This document shows positions 8,935 to 48,267 of a DNA stretch of 64,000 nucleotides, one piece after another. The stretch is taken from assembly GCA_013368375.1 (NCBI GenBank), contig JAACJP010000002.1:2170001-2234000 (forward strand), written 5' to 3'. Below the pieces are notes generated by a model. It was given only the letters and a program-made list of their open reading frames with translations, made no database searches and was not told where the DNA came from. Each line of letters begins with the position of its first letter. The stretch's first letter is position 1. This DNA is from Tricholomella constricta. Its lineage: Eukaryota > Basidiomycota > Agaricomycetes > Agaricales > Lyophyllaceae. Position numbers and translations under genes: made by a program.

Positions 8935-9640
8935 CTCAAGGCCCCCCTTCGGCGGGGGAAGGCACCTCTTCTTCAGGACCTTGGATTTCATGGCCACGCC
9001 CACGATCGTGATCGGCCACCTTTTCCCCCTGAACAAGCACAACTTCAGTGAAACCTCGGGGTGCCGTGAGCAACGTCATGTCTATGTCTCCTGCTCGTGG
9101 CGTCAGAGAAGGTTCTAGATTAGCTCGAGCAATATTCCGAAGACATCCATTGGCATGCCCGGAACGCAGGTGGTCAAGATACCTGAGTACGTGAATGGCT
9201 GGTCTTCGGCTGTTGGCCAGCTCTTCACGGGACAGTGCAAAACCGATCTGTTCGTGGACTGCGTTTTCGCTTTCACTGTAAGCTGTTCACTAATTTCAAT
9301 GCAAGAGGATCCTAGACCTCGTCGTTGTGGGCACTGATCCGTTCACCATTCTTTTTTTTTGGAAAAGCACTAATTTTATCATCAGATGTCTAAAGGGGAT
9401 GCTCACTATCTGCGCAAAGGTCCGGGACTTCCAGTCCCACATATCAAGTCTTTTCTGGTGACCCGAATGCCCTCCATCCCCAACCGGGTCCTGGGTAATC
9501 CACTGGAGACGGGGAATCAGGCACGGTTTGTATGTAAGAATTCTGGTGATTACTGCCTTGTCCTGTGGCTTGGCTGTCTACTGCGCACAGCTACCTGCGC
9601 TATCTAAGCTACTGTGTATGTAAGTCTATCATATCTATAT
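8935..9640 (+). CDS. Unidentified gene, conserved exons
   Basis: At least two open stretches read like real protein: LDFMATPTIVIGHLFPLNKH (about 8985-9045) and, after further exons, KTDLFVDCVFAFT joined across an intron (9279-9385) to MSKGDAHYLRKGPGLPVPH and SFLVTRMPSIPNRVLGNPLE. The same exons occur, diverged, on the minus strand at 63,712-64,000, so the block was duplicated with the neighbouring membrane protein gene. I do not recognise the family. The exon limits are rough, and the gene may be incomplete or decayed. Confidence 0.4.
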
Positions 9641-9739
9641 CTCTAATCTAATGTGTATCAGTGAATCTATCGTATTTGTACCTGTGCATGCTGCCTGGAT
9701 GATTGTGTCTGTCGCCCATCTGCACCAGATCTTCTGACA

Positions 9740-11153: not shown

Positions 11154-13003
11154 GCTTGGGATGAGGGTACCATCCTAGCCACCTTCCGTTGTCTATAAAT
11201 CATGCACAAAAATAAAATGATACGAAGCGAGATTGTCGCGACGCAGCCCACCATATCTAATCATGATGTGATGGGGGCAAAAGAAAGCCCGACATTGATA
11301 TGGCTGTGATGAACAATGATGATGCTCACCTGAGGAAGCCGCGGACAAGGAATTAAGATGAGAGAATGATGCCGACATTCTGGCTCTTCGAAGATTATTA
11401 ACACCATGTAATGAGCGGCCCGGTGTCCTGACACACAAAGCCCACTTTCTGTTGGAGATTCAGAATTAAGGAAGACGTTGAACAGACAGAATACGGTTCT
11501 GAGGACGTGTTTCCGGCGTGATTTGAGGGCCCCGATTCTAAACATGTGGAAATGTAGAGAATTTCATCAACCAACACAGCAGCAGTTGGAGATCAAGCTT
11601 CCATCAGGAGAACCTCCACATTACAAAGGCAGTGGAACATGATATCGAGATGACAGTCTGATATCATCGTACCATGCCGAGAATTTATCACCCTTCCATC
11701 TAAACCCATCATTATGATTGGTGCCTTCAAGAGAGTGTCACGACGCGATGCTTCTCTCTCTGGATAATGAAGAGAGACAGTAGGGGATCAAAATGAGCAA
11801 AATGTGTGACACGCACTGCGTTTAAATTGAACGCGGAATTTTCAATGTTCCTGTCCGGCTGACACTCTAACAGCCTTCGAGCCTCGTTGCGTGCGGGAAC
11901 ACCAATGGTGTGTCGCGTGTCGCGAGTGAAAACCGCGATTTGATTTCCCCCAAGGATGCCTATCGTGTGCTTGCCCCCTGCACCCCACAAAACCTCCTAA
12001 ATCTGGTAATAGCCAGCGAGAGCTCATGGATCATGATTTCGATGGATCGGCGGACGTCCACTTGGATAGAATCAAAGAAAGAAACTGCCAGAAGCGCTAG
12101 AAATAGGACGAATTGCGTTTGTTGGAGGTCGTGGCTTTGGCGCGCCTGCTTCTATGAGACCGTGAACAAAAAAGGTCAGCGCTGCACTTGGGAGCACAGT
12201 TCCCACAAACTGCCTGTCAATGGGATCGCCGTTCATGACGGCCTTCGGGTTTCAGAAACACTTGTGCAAACTTACATTTTTGAAAATATCTCGGTATCTA
12301 AGGGATTTACAACAGCACGAAGTGATTAGCGCGCCGGCGCTACTATTTGATGAAATGCAAGGTAAAAGATAGGAATCGCTGGCCGCAAGCAATCTGGGTG
12401 AAAACAGTATTTACCATTTTAATGTCAAGGGAAAAAGCGCGACACCGTTGACTCTGGCTTGCTCGCTGGTGGAAATGACGACAAACCGATGGAACAACAC
12501 TGAACAACGACAAACTTAAAGCAAACCAGAGCGGACCAGACAGCGCGGCCCGGAAATGCCCCATTCATCATTGCTCGTCCTGCAGACTTCTTGGAGCCAT
12601 AGCTATCATTGCTTCCAACTGAACTTTTGCTCTCCATCTTCATATGCATAGACGGATTCCCATTGGAAGTTTTTCTGCAAGCATGAGAGCTGTCTCCGCC
12701 TTGCGCAGCCCTTTGGGGTATCATTCCACTGCACCTGTACGAGGGATGAATGTCCTATACTTCAGAATGGAAGAGCTATGAACACTACAGCCCCGCCTTG
12801 TTCCCTTACTACTGTGTGTCGGCAGTGGCGCGACATCAAGGAATATATTCCAGTCTTTTGTCTTTTGGACACGTATCGTCGCCCTCGTCGATGTGAGCCC
12901 TACCGACCCAAACGCACGAGACTCGAGATGGGCGCAATGCGTGTGATAGGTGTATGGTTGACCGCCACTTTTTAAGTAGAGCCACAAAGCACCGTCTCAC
13001 ACG
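11154..13003. other. Arm region with decayed gene remnants
   Basis: Most of this mirrors 60,490-62,250. Short blocks of protein-like sequence are kept in both arms on opposite strands (for example QIAVFTRDTRHTIGVPA at about 11,890-11,950, minus), suggesting an old gene that no longer has an open frame. About 400 bp (12,550-12,955) is absent from the other arm. It holds SLTTVCRQWRDI (plus, about 12,800), which resembles the start of a fungal F-box protein but is too short to call. Confidence 0.45.
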
Positions 13004-13103
13004 ACACTGATGGTGAAGTGGTTATCATGCTTGCCTTCCATTATCGTTGATTCCAGGAGTTGTAGTACAGCAAGCGGCAGGGGTTCGATTCCCCTTCAGT
13101 GTA
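13004..13103 (+). tRNA. tRNA-Gly(TCC) with 28-nt intron
   Basis: The acceptor is ACACTGA/TCAGTGT, the anticodon stem CTTGC/GCAAG, the loop CTTCCA..A (anticodon TCC) and the T-arm AGGGG-TTCGATT-CCCCT. The extra sequence between anticodon and stem is a 28-nt intron. The mature sequence is identical to the copies at 43,375 and 60,402; the introns differ. Confidence 0.88.
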
Positions 13104-14412
13104 AATGAGGACAGGGTGTACAATGAATGTTTTTCTTCGTGGCTTTCTCGTCCTTCACACCACTCCACGCGTTGCGCTCAGACATTACACAAAGCACCAC
13201 GCCTCGATCTAGTAACTTGAAGTAACAGCACTCGCTTCGTCTCTCATCACACACACAACCGTGACATACGCACAGAAGCAGTAGAGGAAAAAGAACAGAG
13301 AAAAATATTGGCATTGCATATGCATCGCACTGCGTCTAAAAAAACATACATACAGTAACAGTAACACACAGAAACTATCAGCCATCAGCTAAAGGGGGTG
13401 GGGGGAAGGACGGGGCGGGGCGGGGCGTACATGTACGTGCGAGAGGCGATGAGCGATGTTGTTGGGGGCGATGTACGATGTAAAATGGTACACCAAAATA
13501 CGGGGGAAAATTTGTATGCAATACAAATATGCTACGTCTGTGGGATCTGGGGATCTGAGGACTGAGCTTCGGTTCGTCTGTGGAAAGATTTGGTTTCAGT
13601 TTCAGATTCGGATTTATGGGAGTCGAGGTCGAGTCGTTGGTCTACTAGGGACTTGAGATTGGAGACTGGTTGGCGGAAGGAGAAAAATACGCGAGTGCGA
13701 GAAGGATTATGCAGGCGCGGGGGGATGGGGGCGAAGGGGGTGTGATCGTATGGCCGTGGGGTTGTATCTCATATTTCGTAAGATGCAGCGGTGGCAGGTA
13801 GCAAGGGGGCACGGGGCAGGGGCAGGGGGCACAGAAACACGGAGCAAAGAGCAAGAAGCAAGAAGCAATGAGCAATGAGCAAGAGGGGGTCAGCGAGACA
13901 CATTTATCTGGTTGACGGTTACTGTTAATTGTTTGGCAGTTCTGGAATCTGAAGTGAGGGACAGGCAGGTACGGGTATTGGGCGGGGAATGAGAGGAGAA
14001 TTCAGTACGACTGAGGCGCGTTACGGACGGACGGGGGCGGAAGGGAGAGTGCTGGTGGGAGCAGGGAAGGTGATACGATAAGGCGAGCTTTCGATTCATT
14101 CGTTTCTTTCTCTGATGATCGGATGGGAGTGGACTTGTATGCGGAAGGGCAGACGAAGCTGGAGTCGTGGCGCAGAGCCGGTTCGGAATCGGAATCAGAG
14201 TCGAGGCGACGTAGATGTATGCGGGAAGGAGGGACGGACGGACTTCTATGCAGAGGCGGGAGGGCTAAGAGCGCAGGCGAAATCGCAAGAAAAGAATGGA
14301 AAAAGAAAAAAAGAAACAGAACAGGGATAAAGATCCCAGACGAAACGAGGAAACAGAGAAGAAGCAAAAAGAATCAGAACAAAACGGAAAAAAAGCCCAA
14401 AGTACCCTTGAT
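13104..14412. repeat. SRPK downstream flank, arm copy A
   Basis: Matches 43,476-44,841 (same orientation) and 59,311-60,401 (inverted). It includes a short ACAGTA microsatellite (near 13,350), a G-rich run (13,394-13,427) with several G3+ tracts, and purine-rich sequence near 14,280-14,400. No gene is seen. Confidence 0.7.
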
Positions 14413-15185
14413 TCAGCTCCTCCTCACCGCGCCCGCATTGCACTTCTCCTTGCCCTTGCGCTTCTCCTTCTCCTTCCCGCTCGGCAGCACCGCCGCCGGC
14501 GCCGTCCCCAGTTTCAAAACCCCTTGGCCTTGGCCCTGCGTACATCTCTCCGGTAGCACCACGATCGGGTCTCTCAAAGCCGACGGCGTCCGCTCATCAT
14601 TGCCAGGCGGCGCCTCCACCGGCTTCATTGCGTCCTTCTCGCTCTGCGTCGGCGCCGGCGCCTGTGCCTCCGCTGTAACCGTTCTCGTCCGTTCCCTCTG
14701 CCTCTCTTTCTCCTTGTCCTTCCCACCATCTCTATCCCTATCCCTCTCCTTGCTCCTTCCTTGGCTCTCCGTGCGCACGACCTGCGACGGCCCTGTACTC
14801 ACAGTCGCATTCGCATTTGCACCCTCCGCCCTTCTGATCACATCGGTCTCGCCCTGGACGACGACCCCGTCCAGCCATCGATGATGGAGGAGTTCCGTGG
14901 TAAGTTGAGCCAGCGCTGTGCGTATGAGCACGACGACGGAGGAAGAGGAGGAAGGGGAAGAAGAGGAAGAAAAGGCACAGCAAGAGCAACGGCAAAACCA
15001 AAGCCTCGAAAAACCCCGACGCACCTTTAGAGGCTTTAAACCTGGAAATGTTATGCTCTGAGGAATCTCATCCATGAGTTCCATGATCTGCGCAATGTGA
15101 TCGTCGTCCCTGCTGTCCGCGGACCCGAAGCGTATTCGCTGTCCGTGATGGGCTCGAATATCTGTTTCGTGTTCACAGAGCCATG
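14413..15185 (-). pseudogene. SRPK kinase, 3' exons, arm copy A
   Basis: Matches the last two exons of the intact kinase at 44,842-47,819: an IMELMDEIP block, then HHRWLDGVVVQGETDVIRRA and the Arg/Glu/Lys-rich tail. The exon junction region is damaged and the sequence between these blocks is lost. The upstream exon lies beyond element 1 at about 35,500-35,720 and in the opposite orientation. It cannot make a kinase. Confidence 0.75.
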
Positions 15186-15249
15186 GTAGGAAAAGATTCG
15201 CTAGTCATTGCATGGGGAGGACGCGGGCGGGTGGAGATACGGACTCGGA

Positions 15250-15454
15250 TGTAGCGGTAGTGTGTGAAGTCACAGTAACGCTACACAGATAGGGGTTTAG
15301 TCTCACGAGTAGAACAGGTGTAAGTTCTAGTATTGGAAAACTGATTGACTGTAACGTAGTTCTACATATATATATGAGGGGGAATATAGGGGAGCTTAAG
15401 TAAGAATGATAGCGGGTAGTAGTTAACCGGGCCAAGTATGTCACGGTCGCTACA
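15250..15454 (-). repeat. Element 1 3' LTR
   Basis: 205 bp, starting TGTAGCG and ending TACA as written on the plus strand (TGTAGCGACC...CTACA on the minus strand). A purine-rich stretch adjoins it inside the element on the minus strand. Confidence 0.93.
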
Positions 15455-15538
15455 TACGCCCTCCAGGCATACTGAAAGAGATGCCTCCATGAAAATAGAA
15501 TAGTTGTATAAGAAGTGGGTATGCGTAGGGGGTCGGTT

Positions 15539-20269: not shown

Positions 20270-21684
20270 TCAGCGCGCTGGATCCCGAATCTGCGCTGTG
20301 TTGCGCTGGATAGCTGGGTAGGTCCCAGCTGGCACCTGAACCCCGTCCAATCGTACGACGTGGAGCAATTCCCCGTCTTCCCGAAATTCCAAGCCACCAA
20401 ACGCCGATGCCCAGGTTCGAGCCTGGTCTCGTTCGTACTCCTCCTGAGCCAGAGGCTCAGGTAGTGGTTCACCGTACAGGCACCCAGGATCGTAGGCTGG
20501 GTCATATGGCAGAGTAAATGCCTCTGATTCAAGCAAGCGGTACGTCTGTGCTAACTTCTTTGTGTACCAATTCACCAAATCAAATTTGCCGTTCATTAAG
20601 GATATTTCCCGGATGGGCGTAGCCCAATGCAGCGCCCGGTCCAGAATGAGCATTAAGTCTGAATCTTCATTGGCGCGCATAACTCGGAAACGAGCTAAGC
20701 GCAGTGCATCTCGGGGTGTGTCCCGTGGGTAGGGGATCCCTGACTCCAGGACCCGTTCTGCGTTCCACGCCCACACATTCCCAAAGGTGGTCACCCGATA
20801 CTGCGATGCACGGGTAAGTGGTACACCTGAACGCTCCGCGCACCGTATTGCATACCACGTCCCAATCTCAAAGTTAGGACGCATCACGGCGGCCACAGAT
20901 ATACTGTCGTAGCAGTCGCGTATCTGATCGTACACGATCATCTCATCGTCGCAGCGCATGGCTGCGAAACGCGCATGTCGGAATTGAAGAACATTGCACG
21001 GGTCACCTGGGTAAGGCTGCATGCGTTCCAGCATATGTATCAGCCTACGCGAGGGTGCGTAATCCAGCTGCCAACGTGGTCCTTCAGCTAATCCCAACAA
21101 GTGTAGTCGACTTTCCGTGTCTGATACTTCGAACGGAAACTCATCTAATTCGATGGACGGCGTGAGTATGACATCTTCAAATAACGGATCGGTCCCGTCG
21201 CCGTCATCCGAGATCTCCAACTCCGACAACGACTCGGCCACGGAGAAGTAATCAACAAAATCATCTCCTCTGCTGCCTTCCGAATCGGCTTCTGAGGCGG
21301 ACGCCGTAACCGACTGCAAAGACGGTGGTTCGGAGCCGGTGAAGGCTACTACACCCTCGGTCTCCGTTGAGCCTTCCGAGGAATCAGAGACGGTCCTCAG
21401 GCTGGGCATCGACCCCGCAGAACTCGACGAAGGCGAAGTAGTAAAGGTCTCCGAAGAGGCAGGGGCTTCCTCCGTCGCCGTTGTGCCTGCGGAGGAATCG
21501 GATACAGTCATCAAGCTGGGCGGAGACCCCCCAGAGCTCGATGAAGGTGGCGTAGGATCGTTTCCACTACTGCCGTTCCCACTGTGCATCGAATTCCATA
21601 GTTCCAAGGATGATATAGTCAGGGCAGTTGTGATCTCCCCAAGGCTGTCGACTTGAGACTGTTCGGTCTCTTCTACACTCAGGC
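20270..21684 (-). CDS. Element 1 gag 3' part, unfamiliar domain
   Basis: Continues in frame from the zinc knuckle on the far side of element 2: joining 32,691 to 21,679 after removing element 2 and one CAGGC keeps the frame. It starts with a Ser/Thr/acidic linker of about 150 residues, then about 280 residues of folded-looking sequence. This holds two similar units, one with FRHARFAAMRCDDEM...NFEIGTWY and one with LARFRVMRANEDSDLM...KFDLVNWY. It ends at TGA (20,270-20,272) and the same frame goes on as protease. Typical gypsy elements have little between zinc knuckle and protease. I do not know this domain. Confidence 0.7.
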
Positions 21685-21908
21685 TGTAAGGGCGCTTACC
21701 ATCTTATCTATTAATCTTATCTAATCGTATCTTATCGACACGATTATGTTATTGTTTGGCAACACCGTCTGGTGTTGCCTATTTAATAAACTATATTACA
21801 TAAGTATAGAGCAGACCTTGTACACCACCTACACGTAGCAAATAGACGACTAGTCAAGCTTACGTGCAGCGTGAACAGCAAGGTCGCCCAACTTGTAACT
21901 CCGTTACA
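21685..21908 (+). repeat. Element 2 5' LTR
   Basis: 224 bp, TGTAAGGG...CCGTTACA. It includes a 9-bp stem with a 4-nt loop (21,758-21,779). Confidence 0.95.
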
Positions 21909-22105
21909 TTTTTTTAAGCTACCTAGCTTCTTATTGCTGCGTACCCACGCAGCCACGTCAAAATCAAAACTCTATTATCAACATCAAAGAACCCACCAAT
22001 TTCCGAGACCCGATGACACCAAATTCCACACCCGGAAAAGACTGAATTCCGGACCACGAGGATGCACTCACAGCGCATCCTCCATCACAACGTCCACTGG
22101 ACCCA

Positions 22106-25087
22106 GTGGAAGTCGGACTGGTAGCTGGTGGCCAAAGCCCACCAGCTCAGAATCTCTTAGGACTAGAATCTGGAGAATTCCGGCCGAGCTCGCGCAGCAA
22201 TATGCCTGGGAACCTGGCCGACGAACTGGCCAGGTCACACCGACCTGGGGCGGCATCCGCGAGATGGCCAGGCAGCCGCCTATCAAGTCGATCGCGCGGG
22301 GTGATCACCCCGACCATCGTGAAGGTTGAATCGGACCAGGACGATTTATCTGACCCCGACGAGGTTGAAGAAGAAACTATCGACCACGTAGAGCTGGCCG
22401 TGCGTGTGACGCGATTCTGGAAGACCACCGATGTTCTAAGCGAACATCGGCGAAGGCGATTGGAGGAACGAGCAGATAGGATCGTTCTGCGATTAACCGG
22501 AGTAGACACGGTTAAGGAATTGGTCGCGCAAGCATATGCCGACCAATACATGGAGGCGTTGTCCGTAGTATTCACGGAATATAGAAGGAAGTACCCTAAG
22601 GGAACTTCAACCGGGGCAGGCAGTTCAATTGCCGGGACACCCAGAATTACGAGTGTCCCAATCGACAAAGGAAAAGGTCGAGTAATCGACCTATTCACGC
22701 CTCAAGCAATAGCCTCGGGATCAAATCAACCCCTGGATGAGGCGGCTATGGCAGTATCAGTGCTGCATCAAGCGCGGCAAACAGGAGAATCCGACGACGA
22801 TTATCGTCGTCGAGCGGCTGCCGCGAAACGCGAGAGAATGACCCTGGAAGGGCATTATGCGCAACCACAGGGTTCTAAAGGAGCTCCGACTAGTGAAGCT
22901 ACACTAGAACCACCAACTGTGCGCAATGAACCAAGCGCGCAGGCAGCTGGCAACGAAAGTGCGCCAGTTATTCAAGTCCCTAAAGACCCTAGGGATCGGA
23001 CTCCTTTGGCCAAGGAGTGGGACACGCGGGTCGTATATCAGCGATTGAGAAACGCTGATTTATCAAAGAGCAAATTCACGAAGTACGACGATCAGGGGGT
23101 CGTCTTTGAGGGGCATATGCCCGTCGACGAGATGGCGCGGCAATGGGCCTCGCAAACTCAGGGTTCAGAGATTGGAATGAGAATTGGGGCCGTCGGAGGA
23201 AATCCTACGACGGCGATGGCTAACGGCCGTCAAGATATGCGGGTTCGCATTAGCGAACCCTCGGCATCGGCACCGCTTCGAGCTCAGACTCGAGGCTACT
23301 CTATGCCTGCACCGATCCGGCGGAGTCAATCCATCGCGGACGGAATTCATGCTGCAGGAGAGCAGCATAAAACGAAGATGCACGAACGGCTGCATCAACT
23401 GATGCACGAGCGACTATCGGTACGACTATCGCTACCTGACGGGATGAAGTCCCGCCGTGCGGACGCAAAGTCCGTGGGCACGTATAGCGGAAGTGCGAAG
23501 TTCGGCGACTTGGAAGAATGGTTGTCGAGCCTTGTAGTTATGTTGGCTGTGAGCCAATTTGGAGGAGCAGAACGCGACCAAGAGCGCGTTCTGATAACAT
23601 CCGAGTTCCTCGACGGTGAAGCTCGGAAGTGGTACAATCGCCACGTTATTCACGTGAACCGCGATAAGCAGTACTGGACGTTTGAAGACGTCATACTAGG
23701 ATTATATGATCGATTCGTGTTACCGTCAACCATGCAGGACGCCCGTAACGACTTCAATGCCGTTACTTACTCGGCGAGCAAAGGCATACAAGGTTTGTAT
23801 GATGACCTTGTTGATCATGCCATGAACATGGCAGCAAGAACGGATGATTGGACGTTCTTGGAGAAATTCCTCAAGACACTTCCGCGTGAAATGAGGAAGG
23901 CGCTATTTGATGACGGGTTATCACCCGAAATCAACACAGCACAAGAGTTCCTAGCGGTGGGATTAGCACACCAAGCAACCCAGAAAACGGCTGATTACTT
24001 CGAGCGGAATATAACCGCTCAACGGGTTCAACCGAGCCAGCTGAGGAAACCAGACGGGGGGCGAGTGAACGTCCCACAAAACAACTTTATCAATTTTCGA
24101 CGTCCTGGCGCAGCTAACGCGAAGCCATATACCAAACCGACGTTTCAGGAACCACAAGGACGCGGAGAACAAAAGCCCCACGTCGAGAAACTAGCAGTAA
24201 AGACTGGAGATCGTCCGCTACACGATCATACGAAAAATCATGGCCACCACAATCACCCACCTGGCGAGGTGTGCTTTAATTGTGGAGGACTAGGGCATTT
24301 CGCAAAGGATTGCAAGAAGCCCAAGAAGCAACCCCGAGCATTCCTAAGGGCCGCTCATACAGCGGCAATTGACGCAGCGATCGAGGCGGACGACGAAGAT
24401 ACTTCGCCTGAGGAGCCGGATGGACGAGAAACTGGACGCCCCGATACAGAGGCGGACAAAGAAGAAGAGGACGATGAATTCGTAGACATGGATGTCTACG
24501 AGAATGAATATTATGCTCGGGACGATGAAACCGAGCGTATGTTTGCGATGACGGAAGTCATTGCGTCAGAAGAACGCAATGATAAGCCACCAATTCGCAA
24601 AGTGAAAGTGCGGACGGGCAGAGACAAGATCGCTCGTCCAGTAGTATTGATAAAGGACAAGGAGTGCCTTGTCACCTACATTAACGTAGGTGGCCATCAA
24701 GCCTGGACCTTATGGGACTCCGGAAGTACGACTACCGGACTTACACCGTCGTTCGCTCAAGTGGCCGACATTCGAGTGTTCCCACTGGAGGACCCATTAA
24801 TCCTACAGCTCGGAACGAAAGGAAGTCGAGCCACAGTAAACTTTGGCACGACAGTGGAAACCGCCCTTCCAGGGTTTAAAGGCAAGATTTACATGGACCT
24901 GGCTAACTTTGATCGATACGACGTGATCATAGGCACGCCGTTTATGCGCGCTAATAAAGTCGTGCTGGACTTCAACCGTGACGAAGTAATCGTCAACGGA
25001 GTCGCTACACCAGCGACGAGAGTCAAAGTGGAAGATACCGATGGCCGTATTAGGCGCCATCGCTCGTTGGAAAAACGAAAAGAATGA
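22106..25087 (+). CDS. gag: Element 2 gag-protease
   Basis: Frame of 993 codons. The N-terminal third is low-complexity and charged. The capsid-like region has LEEWLSSLVVMLAVSQF and a retrotransposon-gag pattern (EWYNRH-type: GEARKWYNRHV, then LYDRFV). The zinc knuckle CFNCGGLGHFAKDC is at about 24,270-24,315. An acidic stretch follows, then an aspartic protease domain with LWDSGSTTTGLT and DVIIGTPFM. The first ATG-type start is uncertain because the track frame opens upstream of clear homology. It ends at TGA 25,085-25,087 in a leaky-looking context (TGA CTC), and the same frame continues into RT. Confidence 0.88.
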   Translation: MEVGLVAGGQSPPAQNLLGLESGEFRPSSRSNMPGNLADELARSHRPGAASARWPGSRLSSRSRGVITPTIVKVESDQDDLSDPDEVEEETIDHVELAVRVTRFWKTTDVLSEHRRRRLEERADRIVLRLTGVDTVKELVAQAYADQYMEALSVVFTEYRRKYPKGTSTGAGSSIAGTPRITSVPIDKGKGRVIDLFTPQAIASGSNQPLDEAAMAVSVLHQARQTGESDDDYRRRAAAAKRERMTLEGHYAQPQGSKGAPTSEATLEPPTVRNEPSAQAAGNESAPVIQVPKDPRDRTPLAKEWDTRVVYQRLRNADLSKSKFTKYDDQGVVFEGHMPVDEMARQWASQTQGSEIGMRIGAVGGNPTTAMANGRQDMRVRISEPSASAPLRAQTRGYSMPAPIRRSQSIADGIHAAGEQHKTKMHERLHQLMHERLSVRLSLPDGMKSRRADAKSVGTYSGSAKFGDLEEWLSSLVVMLAVSQFGGAERDQERVLITSEFLDGEARKWYNRHVIHVNRDKQYWTFEDVILGLYDRFVLPSTMQDARNDFNAVTYSASKGIQGLYDDLVDHAMNMAARTDDWTFLEKFLKTLPREMRKALFDDGLSPEINTAQEFLAVGLAHQATQKTADYFERNITAQRVQPSQLRKPDGGRVNVPQNNFINFRRPGAANAKPYTKPTFQEPQGRGEQKPHVEKLAVKTGDRPLHDHTKNHGHHNHPPGEVCFNCGGLGHFAKDCKKPKKQPRAFLRAAHTAAIDAAIEADDEDTSPEEPDGRETGRPDTEADKEEEDDEFVDMDVYENEYYARDDETERMFAMTEVIASEERNDKPPIRKVKVRTGRDKIARPVVLIKDKECLVTYINVGGHQAWTLWDSGSTTTGLTPSFAQVADIRVFPLEDPLILQLGTKGSRATVNFGTTVETALPGFKGKIYMDLANFDRYDVIIGTPFMRANKVVLDFNRDEVIVNGVATPATRVKVEDTDGRIRRHRSLEKRKE

Positions 25088-28000
25088 CTCAAAGTAACAG
25101 TAGAGGATGACGACAATCCTGAGGATGAGGGTAGGCCGATAAATAGCCTACCAAAGGATCACCCAGCACTTCTACTATCCGATGAAGAGTTTCAAGAAAC
25201 TCTTAAGGAGGGGGATAAGCCACCTCCGAAGACGAAGAAAAATCAACGACGACAGCAGAAGGCACAAACGGAGCCTTCGAAGGAACAAGAACAGGCTAAC
25301 AAGCCATGCGAAGAACGTCAGTGCGACGATGAAGCGCTAAAGACGAACGAAGCCGACAAGGATACGGGATCAGAACCGTGTTCTAATACAAGTAATCGAT
25401 CATTTTGGGACCGACCCAACCCACACCCACAATATGAGTGGATGTTCGATCCGAGAATGCCACAAGAATGGAATGCAGTAATAGCGTCCATGCGGGCACA
25501 CGAAGGACGGAACGTAGGCACGCTAGGAAAAGCGTACCGAAATCCTCGGCCTGAGGAAGTGTCCGAGCCAACGGAAATGAACTTTCCGGTGAATACACAA
25601 CGGGCGAAACGGCCGTTATATCGGTTGCCAGTGAAGGACGAGAGTGAATTTGCTCTCGTAAAACTACGGGCTAGGTATGATGATAAACCTAGCAATAAAG
25701 ACACAGCGTATATCCGTGCTGTAAGAATTGTAGAAGGAAAGGATAAGGCACATAATGGAGGCCTTACCAGAGAAGATTATCCACGACTTCGTCAGCAATG
25801 GCATGACGAATTTGAAGATATGGTGGGTGGTACGAAACAACAGTTACCACCCTGGCGAGAAGTCAACCACGAGATAACCCTCGTCGACGACGAGAAACAA
25901 TACCAGTATCATGCACCGAGGTGTCCAATGTCCCTTCGCGAGGAATTCTACGCGAAGGTTAACCGGTATACGGACTCCAAGTGGTGGGAGCCGCGATCGG
26001 TGAAGCAAGCAGCGCCGCTGCTATGTATCCCGAAAAAGGACGGCTCCCTGAGAACACCTTTAGACGCACGGCAACGTAACGATAATACTATAAAGGACGT
26101 TACGCCCTTGCCGGACCAGGAAGTCATCCGTGAGGATGTTGCCCGGGGAAAGATACGGTCAAAGATCGATTTAACGGATGCGTATGAACAAGTACGCATC
26201 CTCGAGAAGGACGTACACAAGACCGCCTTTGCAACAATAGCGGGAACGTACGTTAGCAACATAATGCAAATCGGGGACTGTAATGCCCCCGCAACATTTC
26301 AACGGTTAATGACATCCGTTTTTCGGGACGTCATTGGGAAGTTTATGCATGTATACTTGGACGATATATTCATATTTTCAAATTCCATCGAAGAGCATGA
26401 AGATCATCTACGAGTAGTGTTCGAGCGATTACGCGAACAATCCCTATATTTGAAGTGGAAGAAATGCGAACTGTATTCGGATCGCGTCGACTGCCTTGGT
26501 CATATAATTGACGACCAAGGAATTCATCCCGACGCGGATAAATTGGCACGGATCCGTGAATGGAGAATACCTCGGAACTACAATGATATCCAACGATTTG
26601 TTGGACTGGTGAATTATCTGGGACAATTTCTCCCAGATATATCAGCGTACACTGGACCATTAATGGCGATGACCGAAAATGGGTCGCCATTCTACTGGAG
26701 GCCTATTCACCAACGATGCTTTGAGATGATCAAGCATATATGTTGCACGACACCAATAATTCGGCCTATACAACCGAAGACAGGCGAACCAATTTGGATC
26801 ATATGTGACGCCTCGAAGTCAGGCGTCGGTGCGATGTATGGGCAAGGACCTACATGGATCCAAGCTCAACCGGCGGGATTCATGTCGAGAAAATTTACTA
26901 ATGCGCAGCAAAATTATGCTGTGCACGAATTAGAAACGTTGGCGATTCTTGAGGCGCTATTAAAGTGGGAGGATAAACTTGTGGGATATAAAATCCACAT
27001 TATTACCGACCACAAAGCCCTCGAGTTCTTTAAGACCCAGGTGAACTTATCACCTAGGCAGCGTCGCTGGATGGAGTATATGTCGCGATTTAACTTCGAC
27101 ATCACGTATGTGAAAGGCGAACTGAATAAAGTCGCCGACTGCTTATCGCGATACTTTGAGAGCGATAATCCGCAAGATAGATACGATGTCCACGACTTCG
27201 TAGCCGCCGATGCAAGAATCGACCCCACTGGAGAAGATCTACCAGTTCCACGATACCATGAGATCGTGGAGAAAGTGGTCGAAATTCGAGCAATGAAGGA
27301 CGTAGAGATACGTCGCAGCAAGCGGCTTCAAGAACGCCAGGAGGACCGGGATATTGAAGCCCAAATTATGGAAGAGGCGGCACCAAGTGTTGCATCTCGA
27401 CCATCATCTCACCCTCAGGAGAGTATAAGTCCAACCGAGCGTGAACGCACTGTTGGAGATATTGTGTTAGGGAGGGATACAGTTGTCCCTCCTCCAGATA
27501 AGACGGATGCGAATATCCTCCGTGAAGTTATCCTCGGTTACCCAAAGGATAAACTATTTTCGGCTATTATCGAAACCCCCAAAGACTTTCGTAACTTTAC
27601 TACGAAAGACAAGCTGATATGGACCAAGAACACTGCCAATGACAGCGTTCTATGCATACCGCGAGAGCCGAAGCTCATCACACCAATCGTTGAGCAAGCC
27701 CATAAAACTATGGGCCACTTCGGTGCGGAACGAACAACGGAATATATCCGACGATGGTACTGGTGGCCCTCGTTAGCCACTACCGTGCGTATGTTTTGTA
27801 AAACGTGCGAATACTGCCAGCAGATCAAGACGTCCAACCAGAAGCCGTCAGGGAAATTACATTCTCTGCCCGTACCAACGAAGCCCTGGGACTCCATCGG
27901 AATGGACTTTATCGGTCCATTCCCAGAATCTAAGGGATTTAACTACCTTTGGGTAGTAATTTGTCGCATGACAAGTATGGTGCATCTGATACCTATACAT

Positions 28001-28987
28001 ACGACTATGACCGCAGCCCAATTATCTTGGGTATATCTACGGGAGATTGTTAGGCTACATGGCCTACCGAGTTCGATTGTAAGCGATCGAGACTCTAAGT
28101 TTACATCGCGCTGGTGGCGAGAACTACATAAATTATTAGGAGCTAAGCTCCTAATGTCGACTTCATTCCACCCTCAAACGGATGGACAGACGGAGCGGGC
28201 CAATCGTAGCATTGGACAAATATTCCGCGCCGTCGTGAGGCATGACCAGAAGGATTGGGTAGACCGTGCACCCATGGCCGAATTTGCGATAAACGCAAGT
28301 GTATCGGCCACTACCAAGTTCGCTCCATTCGAGCTCAATAGTGGCTATATGCCATCCATGTTGAAGGAGATACGCTCAGACAGCGTAATTCCAAAGGGAA
28401 TTCGGGAATATGCCGAGCGCGCATTGCAAAACATAGCGGAGGCGCATGACGCTATCATCGAGGCGCGCGTATTTCAAACGCGCGAGGCTAACAGGCGTCG
28501 CGCGGTCGGCCCTGATATAAATGGGGGTGACTTGGTGTATCTATCAACCAAGAATCTGAATCTCCCCAAGGGACGTGCCCGAAAACTGTGCCCGAAGTTT
28601 GTCGGGCCCTACAAAGTCTTGAAAGCCATGCCAGAAACCTCGAACTACACGTTGGAATTGCCGATGGCGCTTATGGAGCGCCGGATACATCCAGCGTTTC
28701 ACATTTCTCTGTTGCGTCCCTACTACGCAACGAATGATACAATGTTTCCAAATCGAACCCATCCGGAGCCCTATGATTTTGGGGCGCCGGATAATCATGA
28801 ATGGTTTGTGGAAGAGATCTTGGGCCATAGATGGACCCCAGATAACACTATCGAATACCAAGTTCGGTGGAGCCTAGGAGACACCACCTGGGAACCGCAC
28901 GCGAACTGCAACAAGCTAGCGGCACTCGACCACTATCTTGAATTGCAGGGAGTAAGGAGCGCGTCTAAGTTGCCGCGACGAGTCTAG
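25088..28987 (+). CDS. pol: Element 2 pol: RT, RNase H, integrase, chromodomain
   Basis: In the same frame as gag, directly after the TGA. The first ATG is 25,442, 119 codons in, and the stretch before it is acidic and free of stops. RT: KIDLTDAYEQVRI and VYLDDIFIFS. RNase H: ICDASKSGVG, HELETL, ITDHKAL, ADCLSRY. Integrase: HKTMGH with CKTCEYC, then GMDFIGPFPES, VSDRDSKFTS and QTERANRS. C-terminal chromodomain: WFVEEILGHRW...YQVRWSLGDTTWEPH, which in chromoviruses directs insertion to marked chromatin. All catalytic residues I looked for are present, so the enzyme part looks active. Confidence 0.93.
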   Translation, partial: LKVTVEDDDNPEDEGRPINSLPKDHPALLLSDEEFQETLKEGDKPPPKTKKNQRRQQKAQTEPSKEQEQANKPCEERQCDDEALKTNEADKDTGSEPCSNTSNRSFWDRPNPHPQYEWMFDPRMPQEWNAVIASMRAHEGRNVGTLGKAYRNPRPEEVSEPTEMNFPVNTQRAKRPLYRLPVKDESEFALVKLRARYDDKPSNKDTAYIRAVRIVEGKDKAHNGGLTREDYPRLRQQWHDEFEDMVGGTKQQLPPWREVNHEITLVDDEKQYQYHAPRCPMSLREEFYAKVNRYTDSKWWEPRSVKQAAPLLCIPKKDGSLRTPLDARQRNDNTIKDVTPLPDQEVIREDVARGKIRSKIDLTDAYEQVRILEKDVHKTAFATIAGTYVSNIMQIGDCNAPATFQRLMTSVFRDVIGKFMHVYLDDIFIFSNSIEEHEDHLRVVFERLREQSLYLKWKKCELYSDRVDCLGHIIDDQGIHPDADKLARIREWRIPRNYNDIQRFVGLVNYLGQFLPDISAYTGPLMAMTENGSPFYWRPIHQRCFEMIKHICCTTPIIRPIQPKTGEPIWIICDASKSGVGAMYGQGPTWIQAQPAGFMSRKFTNAQQNYAVHELETLAILEALLKWEDKLVGYKIHIITDHKALEFFKTQVNLSPRQRRWMEYMSRFNFDITYVKGELNKVADCLSRYFESDNPQDRYDVHDFVAADARIDPTGEDLPVPRYHEIVEKVVEIRAMKDVEIRRSKRLQERQEDRDIEAQIMEEAAPSVASRPSSHPQESISPTERERTVGDIVLGRDTVVPPPDKTDANILREVILGYPKDKLFSAIIETPKDFRNFTTKDKLIWTKNTANDSVLCIPREPKLITPIVEQAHKTMGHFGAERTTEYIRRWYWWPSLATTVRMFCKTCEYCQQIKTSNQKPSGKLHSLPVPTKPWDSIGMDFIGPFPESKGFNYLWVVICRMTSMVHLIPIHTTMTAAQLSWVYLREIVRLHGLPSSIVSDRDSKFTSRWWRELHKLLGAKLLMSTSFHPQTDGQTERANRSIGQIFRAVVRHDQKDWVDRAPMAEFAINASVSATTKFAPFELNSGYMPSMLKEIRSDSVIPKGIREYAERALQNIAEAHDAIIEARVFQTREANRRRAVGPDINGGDLVYLSTKNLNLPKGRARKLCPKFVGPYKVLKAMPETSNYTLELPMALMERRIHPAFHISLLRPYYATNDTMFPNRTHPEPYDFGAPDNHEWFVEEILGHRWTPDNTIEYQVRWSLGDTTWEPHANCNKLAALDHYLELQGVRSASKLPRRV

Positions 28988-29115
28988 ACTGTGGCGCGAT
29001 CATGTGACCACGGCGATCAAGACAATTACATAACCATCAAAAGGTATGACAGGAGGGTAAATATGTTTTTTCGCGCTAGTACGCGTAATCAACTTCAACC
29101 ACCACCACCAACACA

Positions 29116-30072
29116 ATGAACCCCAACCAAAGCTCAAGCAACGACGCGACTCGGGGCGGCGACAGCCGCACCGAATTTCAAAATTTGAACCCGGGAACGA
29201 GTTCAAGTGGGGGGGAACTGCAGGGGCGCGCGGAAAACGCGCCCCCGCATCCTACCTACATGGGGCCGCAGCCCCATATATACCAGTACCCGTCGGTTGG
29301 CCAGATGAGTCAACCGCCCCATCAGGGGCACCAACCATACTCGCCGGTTGGCCACATGAGCCAACAGATCCATCAAGGGCAACAACCACCTATGGGTGGT
29401 TATTATCAACCGTCGATGGCATTTCAACAGATGCCATCAATGTCGAGCCAGATGGGGTACCCGCAGTCGATGTGGTATCCCCAGATGTCCATGCCACCGG
29501 TACCGCAACAAACGCGGTACAATGAATCGGAGCAGATGGAGGTAGACGACCAGAGTCGTCTACGGGCACCGACTCCTCCGGCGCAGGCGCCACGTGGCGA
29601 ATCGTCGCGACGTCCCGTGGCGCAGAACGCAGTTGCATCGAGTTCGCGACGACCGACAGACGACCGAAGAGCGTCGTCTGCATCAAGTTCGCGGAGACCA
29701 TCCGAAAACGATGGTCTCCTCAACTCCATCTTGGACCGACTGGAAGACGCGGGTATTCACCGCGAATTCTGTGATTTCTTGGACGACGGAATGGCGCAGC
29801 TGGTCATTACCCAGCTGCTAGATGGATACGAGGGAGCCCGCGCGGAGCTGGCACGTGTAAAGGCGAGAGAGACGGCCATGGCTGAGCAACTCAGCCTGGC
29901 AAGAAAACGGCCGGCTGTAGCGTCGCCGGATCGAGGGGAGGGACCATCATCCCGACCCATGAAGAGACAGCAAAGGGGGTTGGTCGAGAAGAACGCACCT
30001 CGTACGAACCAACACGGCAGGCATGGAGTGAGCCCAGGCGCCGCCAGGGACGACACCCCGACCAGGAAGTGA
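29116..30072 (+). CDS. Element 2 extra ORF a: Gln/Pro/Met-rich protein
   Basis: 318 codons from ATG, 128 bp after pol. The N-terminal 150 residues are Gln/Pro/Met-rich and probably disordered, with repeats of the type PVGHMSQ.IHQGQQP. Then come Arg/Ser-rich stretches and a helical segment (about residues 195-260) with NSILDRLEDAGIHREFCDFL and ELARVKARETAMAEQL that could form a coiled coil. It ends at TGA 30,070-30,072, where the next frame overlaps. The overlapping frame is open well upstream of this stop, so ORFs a and b may be one protein split by a frameshift. No known family. Confidence 0.6.
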   Translation: MNPNQSSSNDATRGGDSRTEFQNLNPGTSSSGGELQGRAENAPPHPTYMGPQPHIYQYPSVGQMSQPPHQGHQPYSPVGHMSQQIHQGQQPPMGGYYQPSMAFQQMPSMSSQMGYPQSMWYPQMSMPPVPQQTRYNESEQMEVDDQSRLRAPTPPAQAPRGESSRRPVAQNAVASSSRRPTDDRRASSASSSRRPSENDGLLNSILDRLEDAGIHREFCDFLDDGMAQLVITQLLDGYEGARAELARVKARETAMAEQLSLARKRPAVASPDRGEGPSSRPMKRQQRGLVEKNAPRTNQHGRHGVSPGAARDDTPTRK

Positions 30073-31430
30073 GGCGTGATGAACGCCCACTTGATTATGG
30101 TGTCCAACGGGATGAGGACCGAGGGTCGCGCCAAGTGCGCCCCTTACCTGGCCGAGAACCCGAGGGGAGCGGGTCGACGTCAACGATGTCCGCGGTAGTA
30201 ACGCCGCAGGACTCCGCAGCGCGCCCCCTACCGCCCCCGGGAGACAGCCGGGTGCGGAATCCAGAACGAGGCTCCCAGAAAAAGGAGCCTATCGGCAAAT
30301 ATACGTTGCCGGCGCCATTCCCCGCACCACCTACTACGATGGTGCAACCCCCATCGCCGCCTCCTAGCAAAGGCAAGCAGAAAGCGTCCGACCCCTATGC
30401 CGAGGCTATGGCGGAGTCGGATTGGGGCGAGTCGTCAGACGACGACAAGCCCGTCAGCAAGAAAAAGGCTGCCGGGAAGAAGAAACAACGCGAGAATTTG
30501 GCTCGCAAGGCGGAGAAAGAAGCGACAGGGCGGATTCCCGACGAGCTCGGGGTGGTTTTTATAGACAACCGCCACGAGAGGGATAATCGCTTCTGGGACA
30601 TGGTATCGCGGACGATATATGTATCGTCCGCCCAGAACCGGGCTTTTGCACTGGCCCCAGCAGTTCGCATTTCAGAAAGCGAACTGGGGACGGGACAAAA
30701 CTCCCGTCCCCCAACTGGGCGGCTATACGCTGTCGTACCACGCGGGTTCCCAATGAACCCTCGTGAAGTAGACCAGCTCCATACGCTGGTAGTCACCCGG
30801 CCGCGTGGAGTGACGGACGAAGAGCTGGCTCAAGCCTTCCAGCTATTTAGGGAATTTCGGCGATTGTCCTTGATGGTAGCGCCCCATTTGCGCGACCGGG
30901 CTATGGCGCGTATCGCCATGGAGGAGTTCAAGGACGTCGCCCGACCGTTCGATAGACGGTCGCCCATCTGGCAGGCCGGCCCGATTAGGAGGCCTGGAAA
31001 GGCCTTCATTTACCGGCCTGATAAGCCAACGCGCGGTGCCGGACTGCTACAGCCAGGTCCTGGTCATGCATTTGATGTCGAGCATTGGTGTCGACACATG
31101 ATTCACCATGGGCGTATTGGTTCCAGAAACCAATACGGAGGTATTGTCATGGATTACCGGTTCCGCGTTCACCGTCGCGGAACTTGGGGATACGGCCAAT
31201 GCGCTTGCGCCAACACCGAACAGTTTGCGGGCATGGTTTATGCGCATATTCGCAACCATCACCGCCCGCCCATACCTTTATTCAGAGGCAGTGGCGGCTC
31301 ACAACGAGGCCAATCCGGATCGGCCCTTCACGCCGATCGTAGGGCCCGAGGTTATTATCCCTCGCATCCAAGTGAGCGCCCCAGAGGGACGGGTCACGCA
31401 AGAAGGTGTTATCCAACACCTTATCAATAG
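30069..31430 (+). CDS. Element 2 extra ORF b
   Basis: The frame is open from before 30,000 and there is no clear ATG at its beginning. The N-terminal part is low-complexity, with Pro- and Lys-rich blocks (SKGKQKASDPYAEAMAESDW; KKKAAGKKKQRENLARKAEK). A folded-looking region follows (about 30,540-31,100): FWDMVSRTIYVSSAQNRAFA, RLYAVVPRGFPMNPREVDQL and AFDVEHWCRHMIHHG. After about 31,110 the frame turns Arg/Gly/His-rich and unlike protein, while the +1-offset frame (ORF c) becomes protein-like, so the true reading probably switches there. Function unknown. Confidence 0.55.
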   Translation: MRRDERPLDYGVQRDEDRGSRQVRPLPGREPEGSGSTSTMSAVVTPQDSAARPLPPPGDSRVRNPERGSQKKEPIGKYTLPAPFPAPPTTMVQPPSPPPSKGKQKASDPYAEAMAESDWGESSDDDKPVSKKKAAGKKKQRENLARKAEKEATGRIPDELGVVFIDNRHERDNRFWDMVSRTIYVSSAQNRAFALAPAVRISESELGTGQNSRPPTGRLYAVVPRGFPMNPREVDQLHTLVVTRPRGVTDEELAQAFQLFREFRRLSLMVAPHLRDRAMARIAMEEFKDVARPFDRRSPIWQAGPIRRPGKAFIYRPDKPTRGAGLLQPGPGHAFDVEHWCRHMIHHGRIGSRNQYGGIVMDYRFRVHRRGTWGYGQCACANTEQFAGMVYAHIRNHHRPPIPLFRGSGGSQRGQSGSALHADRRARGYYPSHPSERPRGTGHARRCYPTPYQ

Positions 31431-32028
31431 CGGTATCCCAATTAGCTGGATACACCACAGCTACACCTATGGTCTACACTTTTTAGACCATAACTACATT
31501 AATTCAGGTCCTCTCAAGGAACTGTACCGCAGCGCCGACGACGATCGAGTACGTCGTCTCGACCAATTGGGCGTTCCCCCCGCCATTCCGGAGTGGGATG
31601 GGTGGTATCATCCTACCACCGACGACATCACGCGCATCCAAACGCTGATGCACGTGGAACTCCAGAACGAGTTGCTAGACTGTCTAGTAAGCTCGGAATG
31701 GATGCTTGTGGGCGAAGACCCACATTTCCGAGAACTCCGTGTTTGGACGGGGGAATTTCCCCCTCCGGACCTGCACACTCCCGCTTCATCGGGATCGACG
31801 TTTAATAACGTCGAAATGGCGGACCCGGCGGCAGCTAATCCTGCCCCCGCGACATTATCCACAGTCGCGGCAGCGTCAATTGACGCTGTCGAAACCCCAG
31901 TGGACCCCGTGTCGGACCTAACAGGTCCTCTATCACAGGCGGTGATTACCACCAGCCCGGGTCCGGTGGATCCCAACTCCACCGACTTTGATACCGTGAT
32001 GGAGCCAGTGGTCGGGGAGACAACTTAA
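31108..32028 (+). CDS. Element 2 extra ORF c
   Basis: 306 codons, in the same frame as ORF a and overlapping the tail of ORF b. It contains well-composed segments such as LRAWFMRIFATITARPYLYS, VIQHLINSGIPISWIHHSYT and VELQNELLDCLVSSEWMLV, then an Ala/Pro/Thr-rich tail. An in-frame TGA lies shortly before the first ATG. It is most simply read as the C-terminal part of one large protein made of a, b and c. I do not recognise it. Confidence 0.55.
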   Translation: MGVLVPETNTEVLSWITGSAFTVAELGDTANALAPTPNSLRAWFMRIFATITARPYLYSEAVAAHNEANPDRPFTPIVGPEVIIPRIQVSAPEGRVTQEGVIQHLINSGIPISWIHHSYTYGLHFLDHNYINSGPLKELYRSADDDRVRRLDQLGVPPAIPEWDGWYHPTTDDITRIQTLMHVELQNELLDCLVSSEWMLVGEDPHFRELRVWTGEFPPPDLHTPASSGSTFNNVEMADPAAANPAPATLSTVAAASIDAVETPVDPVSDLTGPLSQAVITTSPGPVDPNSTDFDTVMEPVVGETT

Positions 32029-32466
32029 TCCCCCCGTCAACGAACCGATCCGCGACACGTAGGGATCACCGTCGGGACGACCGCCATTGTCAGGGGCGAA
32101 CCCCCTGACTCTCGAGAAGCACCCCGCAGGTGGCGTATTCAACAAAAACGCAACACCGGTTGTTCTCCGTTCTGGGAATCGTCGCACGGCACAGTGAGGC
32201 CGGGCAGTGGAGCTATCGTATCCACTATGGTATAAGCCAGAAATACGTATCATCAATACGTATTCCTGCAAGTATATTACTGGGTAGAGGTCGCCGGGAC
32301 CTAGACCCTCGTCTTTTTTGGTTCTAACCGACACACGTAGCAATGCTACGCATATATGTATTTGATTAGTGGGTATAGGTCGCCGGGACCTATACCCTCA
32401 TTGTTCCCCTATATTCTTGCTTTACTCCTTGGTAAAGATCGCTATTAGCGATCTTAAAGGGGGGTA
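32029..32466 (+). other. Element 2 3' non-coding region with strong hairpins and PPT
   Basis: It contains an 11-bp stem with a 5-nt loop (32,371-32,397), a similar imperfect hairpin with the same loop sequence about 80 bp before it (near 32,285), and a 9-bp stem with a 3-nt loop (32,435-32,455) that ends exactly where the polypurine tract AAAGGGGGG (32,456-32,464) begins. Confidence 0.8.
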
Positions 32467-32690
32467 AGTAAGGGCGCTTACCATCTTATCTATTAATCTT
32501 ATCTAATCGTATCTTATCGACACGATTATGTTATTGTTTGGCAACACCGTCTGGTGTTGCCTATTTAATAAACTATATTACATAAGTATAGAGCAGACCT
32601 TGTACACCACCTACACGTAGCAAATAGACGACTAGTCAAGCTTACGTGCAGCGTGAACAGCAAGGTCGCCCAACTTGTAACTCCGTTACA
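32467..32690 (+). repeat. Element 2 3' LTR
   Basis: 224 bp, identical to the 5' LTR except for the first base (A instead of T). Confidence 0.95.
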
Positions 32691-32695
32691 CAGGC

Positions 32696-35099: not shown

Positions 35100-35217
35100 G
35101 TTAAAATGAGACTCACGTTTATTGGAAAGCCGGGTTGATCAGACCAGGTGGGCCCAAAATTGCAAGTCGGAGAAAGGTTTGTTAAGAGAAAAGCTAGAGC
35201 TGGTTCTGTTCAAAATA

Positions 35218-35422
35218 TGTAGCGGTAGTGTGTGAAGTCACAGTAACGCTACACGGATAGGGGTTTAGTCTCACGAGTAGAACAGGTGTAAGTTCTAGTA
35301 TTGGAAAACTGATCGACTGTAACGTAGTTCTACATATATATATGAGGGGGAATATAGGGGAGCTTAAGTAAGAGTGATAGCGGGTAGTAGTTAACCGGGC
35401 CAAGTATGTCACGGTCGCTACA
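35218..35422 (-). repeat. Element 1 5' LTR
   Basis: 205 bp, with three transitions relative to the left copy. The sequence next to it inside the element (minus strand) starts TATTTTGAACAG and is not a usual tRNA primer site. Confidence 0.93.
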
Positions 35423-35499
35423 TCGGACGAGGACGAGGACACAAACACGGTACGAGAGGAGGTATTATATATTAAGGAGGAGAAGGCAAGCGAGACCGT

Positions 35500-43374: not shown

Positions 43375-43475
43375 ACACTGATGGTGAAGTGGTTATCATG
43401 CTTGCCTTCCATTTGATTCAAAGTGCCAAAGTGCAAATGCAGCAAGCGGCAGGGGTTCGATTCCCCTTCAGTGTA
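43375..43475 (+). tRNA. tRNA-Gly(TCC) with 29-nt intron
   Basis: The mature sequence is identical to that at 13,004. The intron is of similar length but different sequence. It is next to the intact SRPK gene, 3' side. Confidence 0.88.

Positions 43476-44841: not shown

Positions 44842-48267
<3,426 letters not shown>

Follow-up and report, generated by a model that had tools for sequence, protein, structure and literature searches.

Genome-scale ordered RNA structure (GORS) is a property of the genomes of some positive-strand RNA viruses, in which it is linked to persistence in the host. Among the long terminal repeat (LTR) retrotransposons, the genomic RNA of Ty1, probed by selective 2'-hydroxyl acylation analyzed by primer extension (SHAPE), reportedly contains local stable motifs. 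Local stable motifs are also described for the genomic RNA of yeast Ty3, likewise from SHAPE, and the outline of that structure in PMC11381356 speaks of a well-folded core of approximately 20% and of a mosaic organization, mentioning no genome-wide string of hairpins. Here we address an element of the same broad type, element 2 (E2), which occupies positions 21,685-32,690 on the forward strand of a 64,000-nucleotide stretch of the agaricomycete Tricholomella constricta (assembly GCA_013368375.1, contig JAACJP010000002.1, positions 2,170,001 to 2,234,000; hereafter, the window), is delimited by an LTR pair and a flanking duplication, and is nested in another retrotransposon, element 1 (E1). E2 resembles Ty3 in being an LTR retrotransposon with local stable motifs, these being predicted in E2. 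We consider it probable that genome-scale ordered structure is present in E2 and its relatives in the same genome, with the sense RNA, genomic and messenger, as its likeliest site, and that in E2 this structure consists mainly of small, local, near-perfect Watson-Crick hairpins. Among the papers listed in searches of the open-access literature, none reports genome-scale ordered structure in a retrotransposon.

Hairpin Density in Element 2

Counted as independent perfect stems with loops of 1-15 nt, E2 contains 135 stems of at least 6 bp, 85 of at least 7 bp, 43 of at least 8 bp, 22 of at least 9 bp (21 once the stem present in both LTRs is counted a single time) and 9 of at least 10 bp. The respective means of 30 dinucleotide shuffles are 28.3, 7.8, 1.9, 0.43, and 0.1, and the shuffle maxima are 4 stems of at least 8 bp and 2 of at least 9 bp. 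Codon usage does not account for these numbers either: in gag-pol, 23 stems of at least 8 bp are present, versus 1.47 on average, and never more than 5, when 100 shuffles preserving both codons and protein are made. The surroundings of the nested elements are at chance level, with 3 stems of at least 8 bp found and 3.1 expected in positions 1-15,248 of the window, and 4 found and 5.5 expected in positions 35,424-64,000, while E1 has 6, versus 1.8 expected, an approximately threefold enrichment.

The excess in E2 is restricted to loops of up to approximately 15 nt. Of stems of at least 7 bp, 12 have a loop of 4 nt (0.3 expected) and 26 have loops of 7-8 nt (1.7 expected), versus only 16, with 37 expected, for loops of 31-200 nt. 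The typical hairpin has a stem of 6-11 bp and a loop of mostly 4-10 nt, with one stem of at least 6 bp per approximately 80 nt. Both counts in 2-kb segments and z-scores of 200-nt folds place structure throughout the LTR, gag, pol, the third open reading frame (ORF3) and the remainder of the element. No regular spacing of the stems was detected in E2, their spacing being near random (coefficient of variation 0.92). A bias in loop length modulo 3, suggested by E2 (42, 27, and 16), was tried and dropped, as L010, a related locus introduced below, gave 35, 29, and 27.

Related Families in the Same Genome

The 44.1-Mb assembly, comprising 118 contigs, was searched with a piece of the reverse transcriptase (RT), and at least 151 matches were obtained, with 150 of 771 candidates scored. 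The groups compared are A1, which is E2 itself, A2a (the L010 group), A2b (the L015 group, 90% to A2a), B (the L020 group, about 65%), and the further groups C (L034) and D (L036 and L037; about 55-56% in pol). Among the loci fetched, a single near-identical copy of E2 was found, the partial L002 (99.8% over 2,287 bases); the group with approximately 98% RT protein identity to E2 has a DNA identity to it of approximately 83% along most of its length and of 87.6% near the RT. Relatives beyond this genome were sought in scans of viral contigs, and none was confirmed there.

Families A-D all display the hairpin trait, B less markedly than A, C, and D, in which it is strong. Stems of at least 8 bp number 42-55 per 10-kb locus in A2 (11 of 11 loci), 22-28 in C and D (5 of 5 loci), and 4-7 in B (9 of 9 loci), with shuffle values of 0.4-2.9; these loci were counted as fetched, untrimmed, so that L018 contains parts of two copies and others may include foreign stretches. 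The folding excess over shuffles (MFED, in 350-nt windows) is 22.2% for E2, 24.5% for A2a, 25.3% for A2b, 18.2% for B, 21.7% for C, and 20.9% for D, versus -0.2% and -0.9% for the host controls. E1 is weakly structured, its gag half being higher (14.4% in 7 windows, versus 5.1%). Four copia loci were also fetched, of which one, L039, has a strong folding excess, two have a weak one, and one has none. The excess of L039, an independent case for comparison, is sense-biased (16.8%, versus 9.0% antisense), and the value for L042, the locus with none, is -3.1%.

Conservation of the Stem Arms

As to whether the pairing is maintained, arms of E2 stems differ from L010 at 7.3% of all sites, versus 17.8% in the remainder. 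At fourfold sites of gag-pol, differences between the two are found at 18 of 129 arm sites, 11 of 25 loop sites, and 264 of 774 sites outside stems, and in columns outside gag-pol at 28 of 384, 37 of 148, and 534 of 2,434, respectively. With the fourfold sites of pol alone, the arms are again the more conserved in each comparison within family A: 7/69 versus 149/429 outside between E2 and L010 (p = 2e-5), 4/68 versus 157/431 between E2 and L015 (p = 4e-8), and 5/82 versus 69/436 between L010 and L015 (p = 0.024), so that in this family the frequency of change in arms is approximately 2-6 fold lower than that outside stems. In families C and D the arms are lower in five of five ordered pairs (p < 0.05 in three), and the distant comparison of L034 with E2 gives 13/27 versus 171/244 (p = 0.029). 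When all sites are considered, each of the 14 ordered comparisons made inside A, C/D, or B places arms below both loops and outside sites.

A second line of evidence comes from pairs predicted in pol, judged against 20 permutations that keep the protein and the pairwise codon identity. Close lineages share many more pairs than these permutations: 489 versus 321 (standard deviation, sd, 32) for E2 and L010, 542 versus 317 (sd 32) for E2 and L015, 395 versus 190 (sd 28) for L034 and L037, and 339 versus 187 (sd 26) for another close pair. Far families show a slight excess, with 77 versus 41 (sd 12) for E2 and L020, 41 versus 16 (sd 9) for L010 and L037, and 31 versus 14 (sd 6) for L020 and L037; the 39 versus 20 (sd 9) for E2 and L034 are within the null range. 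Since far families share few pairs and close ones many, the amount of structure is kept over the long term and particular pairs over a shorter term. As far relatives maintain the amount of structure with few identical pairs, the selected trait may well be the folded state as a whole.

A third line concerns the manner in which pairs change. From E2 to L010, 63 pairs are changed on one side and 7 on both, and 6 of these 7 still pair, the background share, taken at random places, being 0.32; from L010 to E2, 88 are one-sided and 20 two-sided, of which 10 pair (background 0.36). Compensated double changes were also seen by eye between L010 and L015. Because two-sided changes are rare in family A, the stems of E2 look as though held by selection, and sequence comparison as a whole supports a selected pairing that is local in reach and extends along the entire genome of the element.

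The initial annotation of this stretch, made from its letters, had proposed selected genome-wide RNA structure as one of two origins of the stems, and this proposal gains support from the conserved fourfold sites of the arms, the 14 concordant comparisons, the shared pairs, and the folding excess in four families. The analyses that it suggested point the same way: shuffles preserving codons or dinucleotides do not reproduce the number of stems, windowed folding reveals the excess in E2 and in families A-D, and E2 is indeed denser in stems than E1, which is enriched far less, and than the surrounding window, which is at chance.

The Molecule Likely to Fold

The sense RNA is favored, short of proof, as the likeliest folded molecule, the evidence on the strand being mixed and clear only in family B. 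With dinucleotide shuffles, the sense and antisense folding excesses are 22.2 and 17.3% in A1, 24.5 and 22.2% in A2a, 25.3 and 20.6% in A2b, and 18.2 and 12.5% in B, amounting to sense advantages of +4.9 (standard error, se, 1.5), +2.3 (se 1.4), +4.7 (se 1.7), and +5.7 (se 1.1), respectively. In 200-nt windows, the sense strand is ahead in five of five retrotransposon loci and in pooled single-stranded RNA (ssRNA) phages; only for B and for the phages does this lead exceed two standard errors. With codon shuffles as the null, 11 of 12 gene segments lean toward sense by energy difference and 9 of 12 by percentage. The types of changed pairs lean slightly to G-U in C and D (144 G-U, 118 A-C), and in stems defined by E2 the arm changes between L010 and L015 yield 22 G-U, 15 A-C, 15 other, and 5 still paired.

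A number of observations weigh against the reading of a selected structure in the sense RNA, in one or the other of its parts. With regard to selection, the contrast at fourfold sites is not significant between families A and B (p = 0.29 and 0.14), and between L037 and L036 the loops (5/20) are not above the arms (22/73); in a wider set of copies, variants among copies compared with fixed differences point to selection but not significantly so in any of three stem sets (p = 0.24, 0.18, and 0.55). Two-sided changes are commoner in C and D, at 7-30 per comparison, versus 43-102 one-sided, or up to 30 of 365 pairs; these pair above background in four of six ordered comparisons, the exceptions being L034 to L036 (7/25, background 0.45) and L034 to L037 (11/30, background 0.35). 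With regard to the strand, C (21.7% sense, 21.0% antisense) and D (20.9 and 22.6%) show no sense advantage over dinucleotide shuffles, and with codon shuffles the advantage is clear only in pol of B (-3.44, se 1.23), the others being small and within approximately 1.3 standard errors. Nor is G-U favored in the interrupted stems of E2, with 11 G-U, 18 A-C, and 34 other (32, 20, and 54 in five ssRNA phages), or among the changed pairs of family A, with 117 G-U and 139 A-C as the sum of six non-independent ordered comparisons, and the polarized changes in two other stem sets lean to A-C (25 G-U versus 37 A-C, and 36 versus 41). Finally, most of E1 and three of the four copia loci are little structured, so that retrotransposition as such can do without this structure.

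Possible Functions and Alternative Explanations

Hairpins of this kind in E2 may serve to shield the element from host RNA interference (RNAi), or they may serve in packaging. Short hairpins are not known to be substrates for Dicer. The predicted hairpins would re-form at once behind ribosomes or the reverse transcriptase, would thereby deny complementary small RNAs, Argonaute, and RNA-dependent RNA polymerase (RdRP) access to the RNA, and would stay too short to be Dicer substrates themselves. Shielding is a possibility here because six-frame matches in the host genome include Piwi, RdRP, and, at two loci, paired RNase III domains.

The main alternative function would be compaction of the genomic RNA, or binding of Gag to it, for packaging. 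Dispersed packaging signals have been proposed for several ssRNA viruses, and the hairpins of E2 could be such Gag-binding signals along the genomic RNA and not a shield, an alternative that we hold to be unlikely but that has points in its favor: the hairpins extend over the entire element, spaced almost at random, the Gag protein has a CCHC knuckle, and the folding excess is like that of ssRNA phages. Against it, the stems listed below reveal no common loop motif by eye, no motif search having been made, and the loops in family A diverge like the background, which speaks against readers of specific loop sequences, and loop bases in contact with Gag should be conserved; the scarcity of structure in most copia loci and in most of E1 is a further point against it.

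A broader proposition, which we advance only as a rather unlikely one, is that in some fungal LTR retrotransposons nearly the whole genome would be a string of short, strict Watson-Crick hairpins on both strands, in the transcript as well as in single-stranded complementary DNA (cDNA), acting as a general armor against complementary nucleic acids such as RNAi guides and RdRP, with no individual signals, and that, families having advanced along this path to differing degrees, its load would track an arms race with host RNAi.

Alternatively, the hairpins might act in DNA, being selected in the minus-strand cDNA, single-stranded as reverse transcription proceeds, or in any setting that requires pairing on both strands, in which case only Watson-Crick pairs count. 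In agreement with this, A-C exceeds G-U on the sense strand in the interrupted stems of family A and E1, A-C there being G-T on the minus strand, the antisense of C and D folds about as well as the sense, and G-U makes up only 5.4% of the confident pairs in E2. Yet shuffles of E2 already yield a modest surplus of A-C over G-U on its sense strand, and the excess over them may not be significant; in family B, stems of at least 8 bp are biased the other way (12 G-U and 4 A-C in L020, 9 and 2 in L026), and the sense advantage there is clear, and family A has a sense advantage over dinucleotide shuffles. We regard action in DNA as improbable.

The second origin proposed in the initial annotation was mutational. 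Template switching or quasi-palindrome correction, processes known in principle to perfect stems, would during reverse transcription make and perfect the hairpins without any selection. The perfect Watson-Crick nature of the stems and their insensitivity to the type of mismatch would fit such a process, and one, if not more, of the 16 lineage-specific stems (in L010, 9 bp, loop 1) carries a tight cluster of changes relative to both relatives that a templated event could explain. If one arm were copied onto the opposite arm, then two-sided changes would be expected to be common at free sites, and these are the rare class in family A; stem arms diverge less, not more, than other sites; and the 16 lineage-specific stems (3, 6, and 7) mostly differ by isolated point changes at scattered positions, with compensation in some cases. 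In nine copies close to L010, variants were found at 8 of 1,452 arm sites, 8 of 648 loop sites, and 44 of 7,900 sites elsewhere, and since variants among near-identical copies are as frequent in arms as elsewhere, the arms are not mutation-poor. A mutational origin is therefore largely contradicted and, apart from one clustered case at least, largely rejected; we consider it highly improbable. As to a by-product of base or dinucleotide composition, of codon use, or of chance in one copy, nothing beyond the A-rich composition of E2 speaks for it, and it is rejected, with next to no likelihood left, by dinucleotide and codon shuffles that fail to reproduce the stems and by replication in four families.

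Anatomy of Element 2

E2 is a young LTR retrotransposon of the Ty3/gypsy type. Its LTRs (21,685-21,908 and 32,467-32,690), the 5' one starting with TG and the 3' one ending with CA, are 100% identical across 223 bp (the repeats starting at 21,686 and 32,468), the first base of the 3' LTR, at its inner end, differing from that of the 5' LTR, and a 5-bp target duplication, CAGGC, flanks the element at 21,680-21,684 and 32,691-32,695. All features of E2 are on the forward strand. The gag and protease open frame (22,046-25,084) encodes a CCHC knuckle and an RVP_2 domain at its Pfam cut-off and ends with TGA; an in-frame TGA CTC (25,085-25,090) separates it from the pol open frame (25,088-28,984), with Pfam matches to RT, RNase H, integrase, and a Tf2-type SH3 domain and a chromodomain (PF00385) below its cut-off (20.3 bits, cut-off 25.1). 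The order of protease, RT, RNase H, and integrase, along with the CCHC knuckle of gag, is that of Ty3/gypsy elements and chromovirus-like, and among the pol relatives listed those bearing names include records from Phanerochaete, Trametes, and Mycena.

In seven of the seven loci read at this junction, which represent families A-D, gag and pol share a reading frame that is interrupted by TGA CTA or TGA CTC (E2, L010, L015, L020, L034, L036, and L037). TGA CTA is a well-known context for stop readthrough, and pol in these families is probably made by UGA readthrough at such junctions.

Downstream of pol, the ORF3 region (29,089-32,028) is represented in E2 by three overlapping open pieces with changing frame, and it is likewise in several frames in L026 and L036. 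In L010 (7386-9998), L034 (7443-9761), and L020 (7427-9997) it is an unbroken long frame of at least 773 amino acids. No Pfam match above cut-off was found for ORF3; the L010 form has two relatives, both Lyophyllum records, at 61 and 42%, and the L034 form has one, at 29%.

The stems of at least 9 bp are distributed as follows. The 9-bp hairpin of the 5' LTR (21,758-21,779) has its match in the 3' LTR (32,540-32,561). Other 9-bp stems are found at 22,123-22,147 (loop 7), 22,428-22,450 (loop 5), 23,568-23,593 (loop 8), 24,558-24,582 (loop 7), 25,185-25,204 (loop 2), 26,176-26,201 (loop 8), 26,615-26,639 (loop 7), 27,899-27,923 (loop 7), 29,542-29,563 (loop 4), 31,468-31,492 (loop 7), and 32,242-32,264 (loop 5), the last not in open frames. 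Stems of 10 bp are found at 22,792-22,812 (loop 1), 24,480-24,501 (loop 2), 28,135-28,155 (loop 1), 29,693-29,719 (loop 7), 30,608-30,631 (loop 4), 30,686-30,711 (loop 6), 31,113-31,137 (loop 5), and 32,435-32,455 (loop 1), the last directly 5' of the 3' LTR, and an 11-bp stem, again not in open frames, at 32,371-32,397 (loop 5).

The 16 stems that the initial annotation had given by coordinate in its groups of 9 and 8 bp are all present, and its estimates of chance (0.6 stems of at least 9 bp, 2.5 of at least 8 bp) were close to the shuffle means. Its count of nine stems of at least 9 bp was too low by comparison with the 22 found, and several of its lengths were understated, the stems at 22,123 and 22,428 being of 9 bp and those at 24,480 and 32,435 of 10 bp. 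The stem that it placed over the RT does span the codons for DAYEQVRI (26,177-26,200), while the letters at 26,817-26,837, in RNase H, do not form the perfect hairpin assigned to them.

Element 1 and Other Features of the Window

E1, on the reverse strand at 15,249-35,423, with LTRs at 15,249-15,455 and 35,217-35,423 and the weaker hairpin enrichment, has TCGGA as its target duplication, and the insertion point of E2 is between its gag frames and its pol frames. Elsewhere in the window, a diverged duplication is represented by 13,004-14,820 and 43,375-45,261, approximately 30 kb apart, with an Rfam tRNA match of 100-101 bases near each start, and a tandem pair with units of approximately 180 bp, 94-97% alike, is found at 56,952-57,317.

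Implications and Comparison with Known Systems

If the proposed structure is real, then genome-wide selected structure would extend from RNA viruses to a retrotransposon, with a similar or greater strength and a more local architecture. A single genome offers Ty3/gypsy elements with a strong (A, C, and D) or a weaker (B and E1) load and copia elements with much excess or none, together with the RNAi machinery, and such natural replicates would allow the long-debated purpose of genome-scale structure, be it shielding, packaging, or stability, to be tested with no pathogen needed. In such elements, synonymous rates may be biased, and so may any dating that takes synonymous sites to be free.

Of the systems described so far, the Ty3/gypsy elements (chromovirus type) of basidiomycetes share with E2 the CCHC knuckle of gag, the protease, RT, RNase H, and integrase, and the Tf2-type SH3 domain; E2 may stand apart from them by the long ORF3 that follows pol, the TGA CTN junction, and the load of hairpins. 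With viral GORS, E2 has in common a genome-long excess over shuffles made up of many consecutive stem-loops, a lower variability of paired sites, and poor conservation of pairs between far relatives; being an LTR retrotransposon, it would act in the manner of GORS and yet is not a member of viral GORS. By the figures in PMC7642675, the folding excess is approximately 15% for SARS-CoV-2, 7.5-10.7% for hepatitis C virus, and 23.4% for the top vertebrate RNA virus, so that the 18-25% of families A-D are above SARS-CoV-2 and near this maximum, with windows and shuffling that differ somewhat between the two studies. The ssRNA phages MS2, Qbeta, GA, SP, and PP7, at 20-31%, are similar to families A-D in folding excess, and they differ from E2 in having only 21 perfect stems of at least 8 bp in 19.1 kb, versus 42 in 10.8 kb. 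The pairs of A, C, and D are also more local than those of the phages, 77-88% of confident pairs spanning no more than 30 nt (63% in B, 52-62% in the phages, 48% in the host), and they are poorer in G-U, which makes up 5-7% of confident pairs in A-D and 8-11% in the phages.

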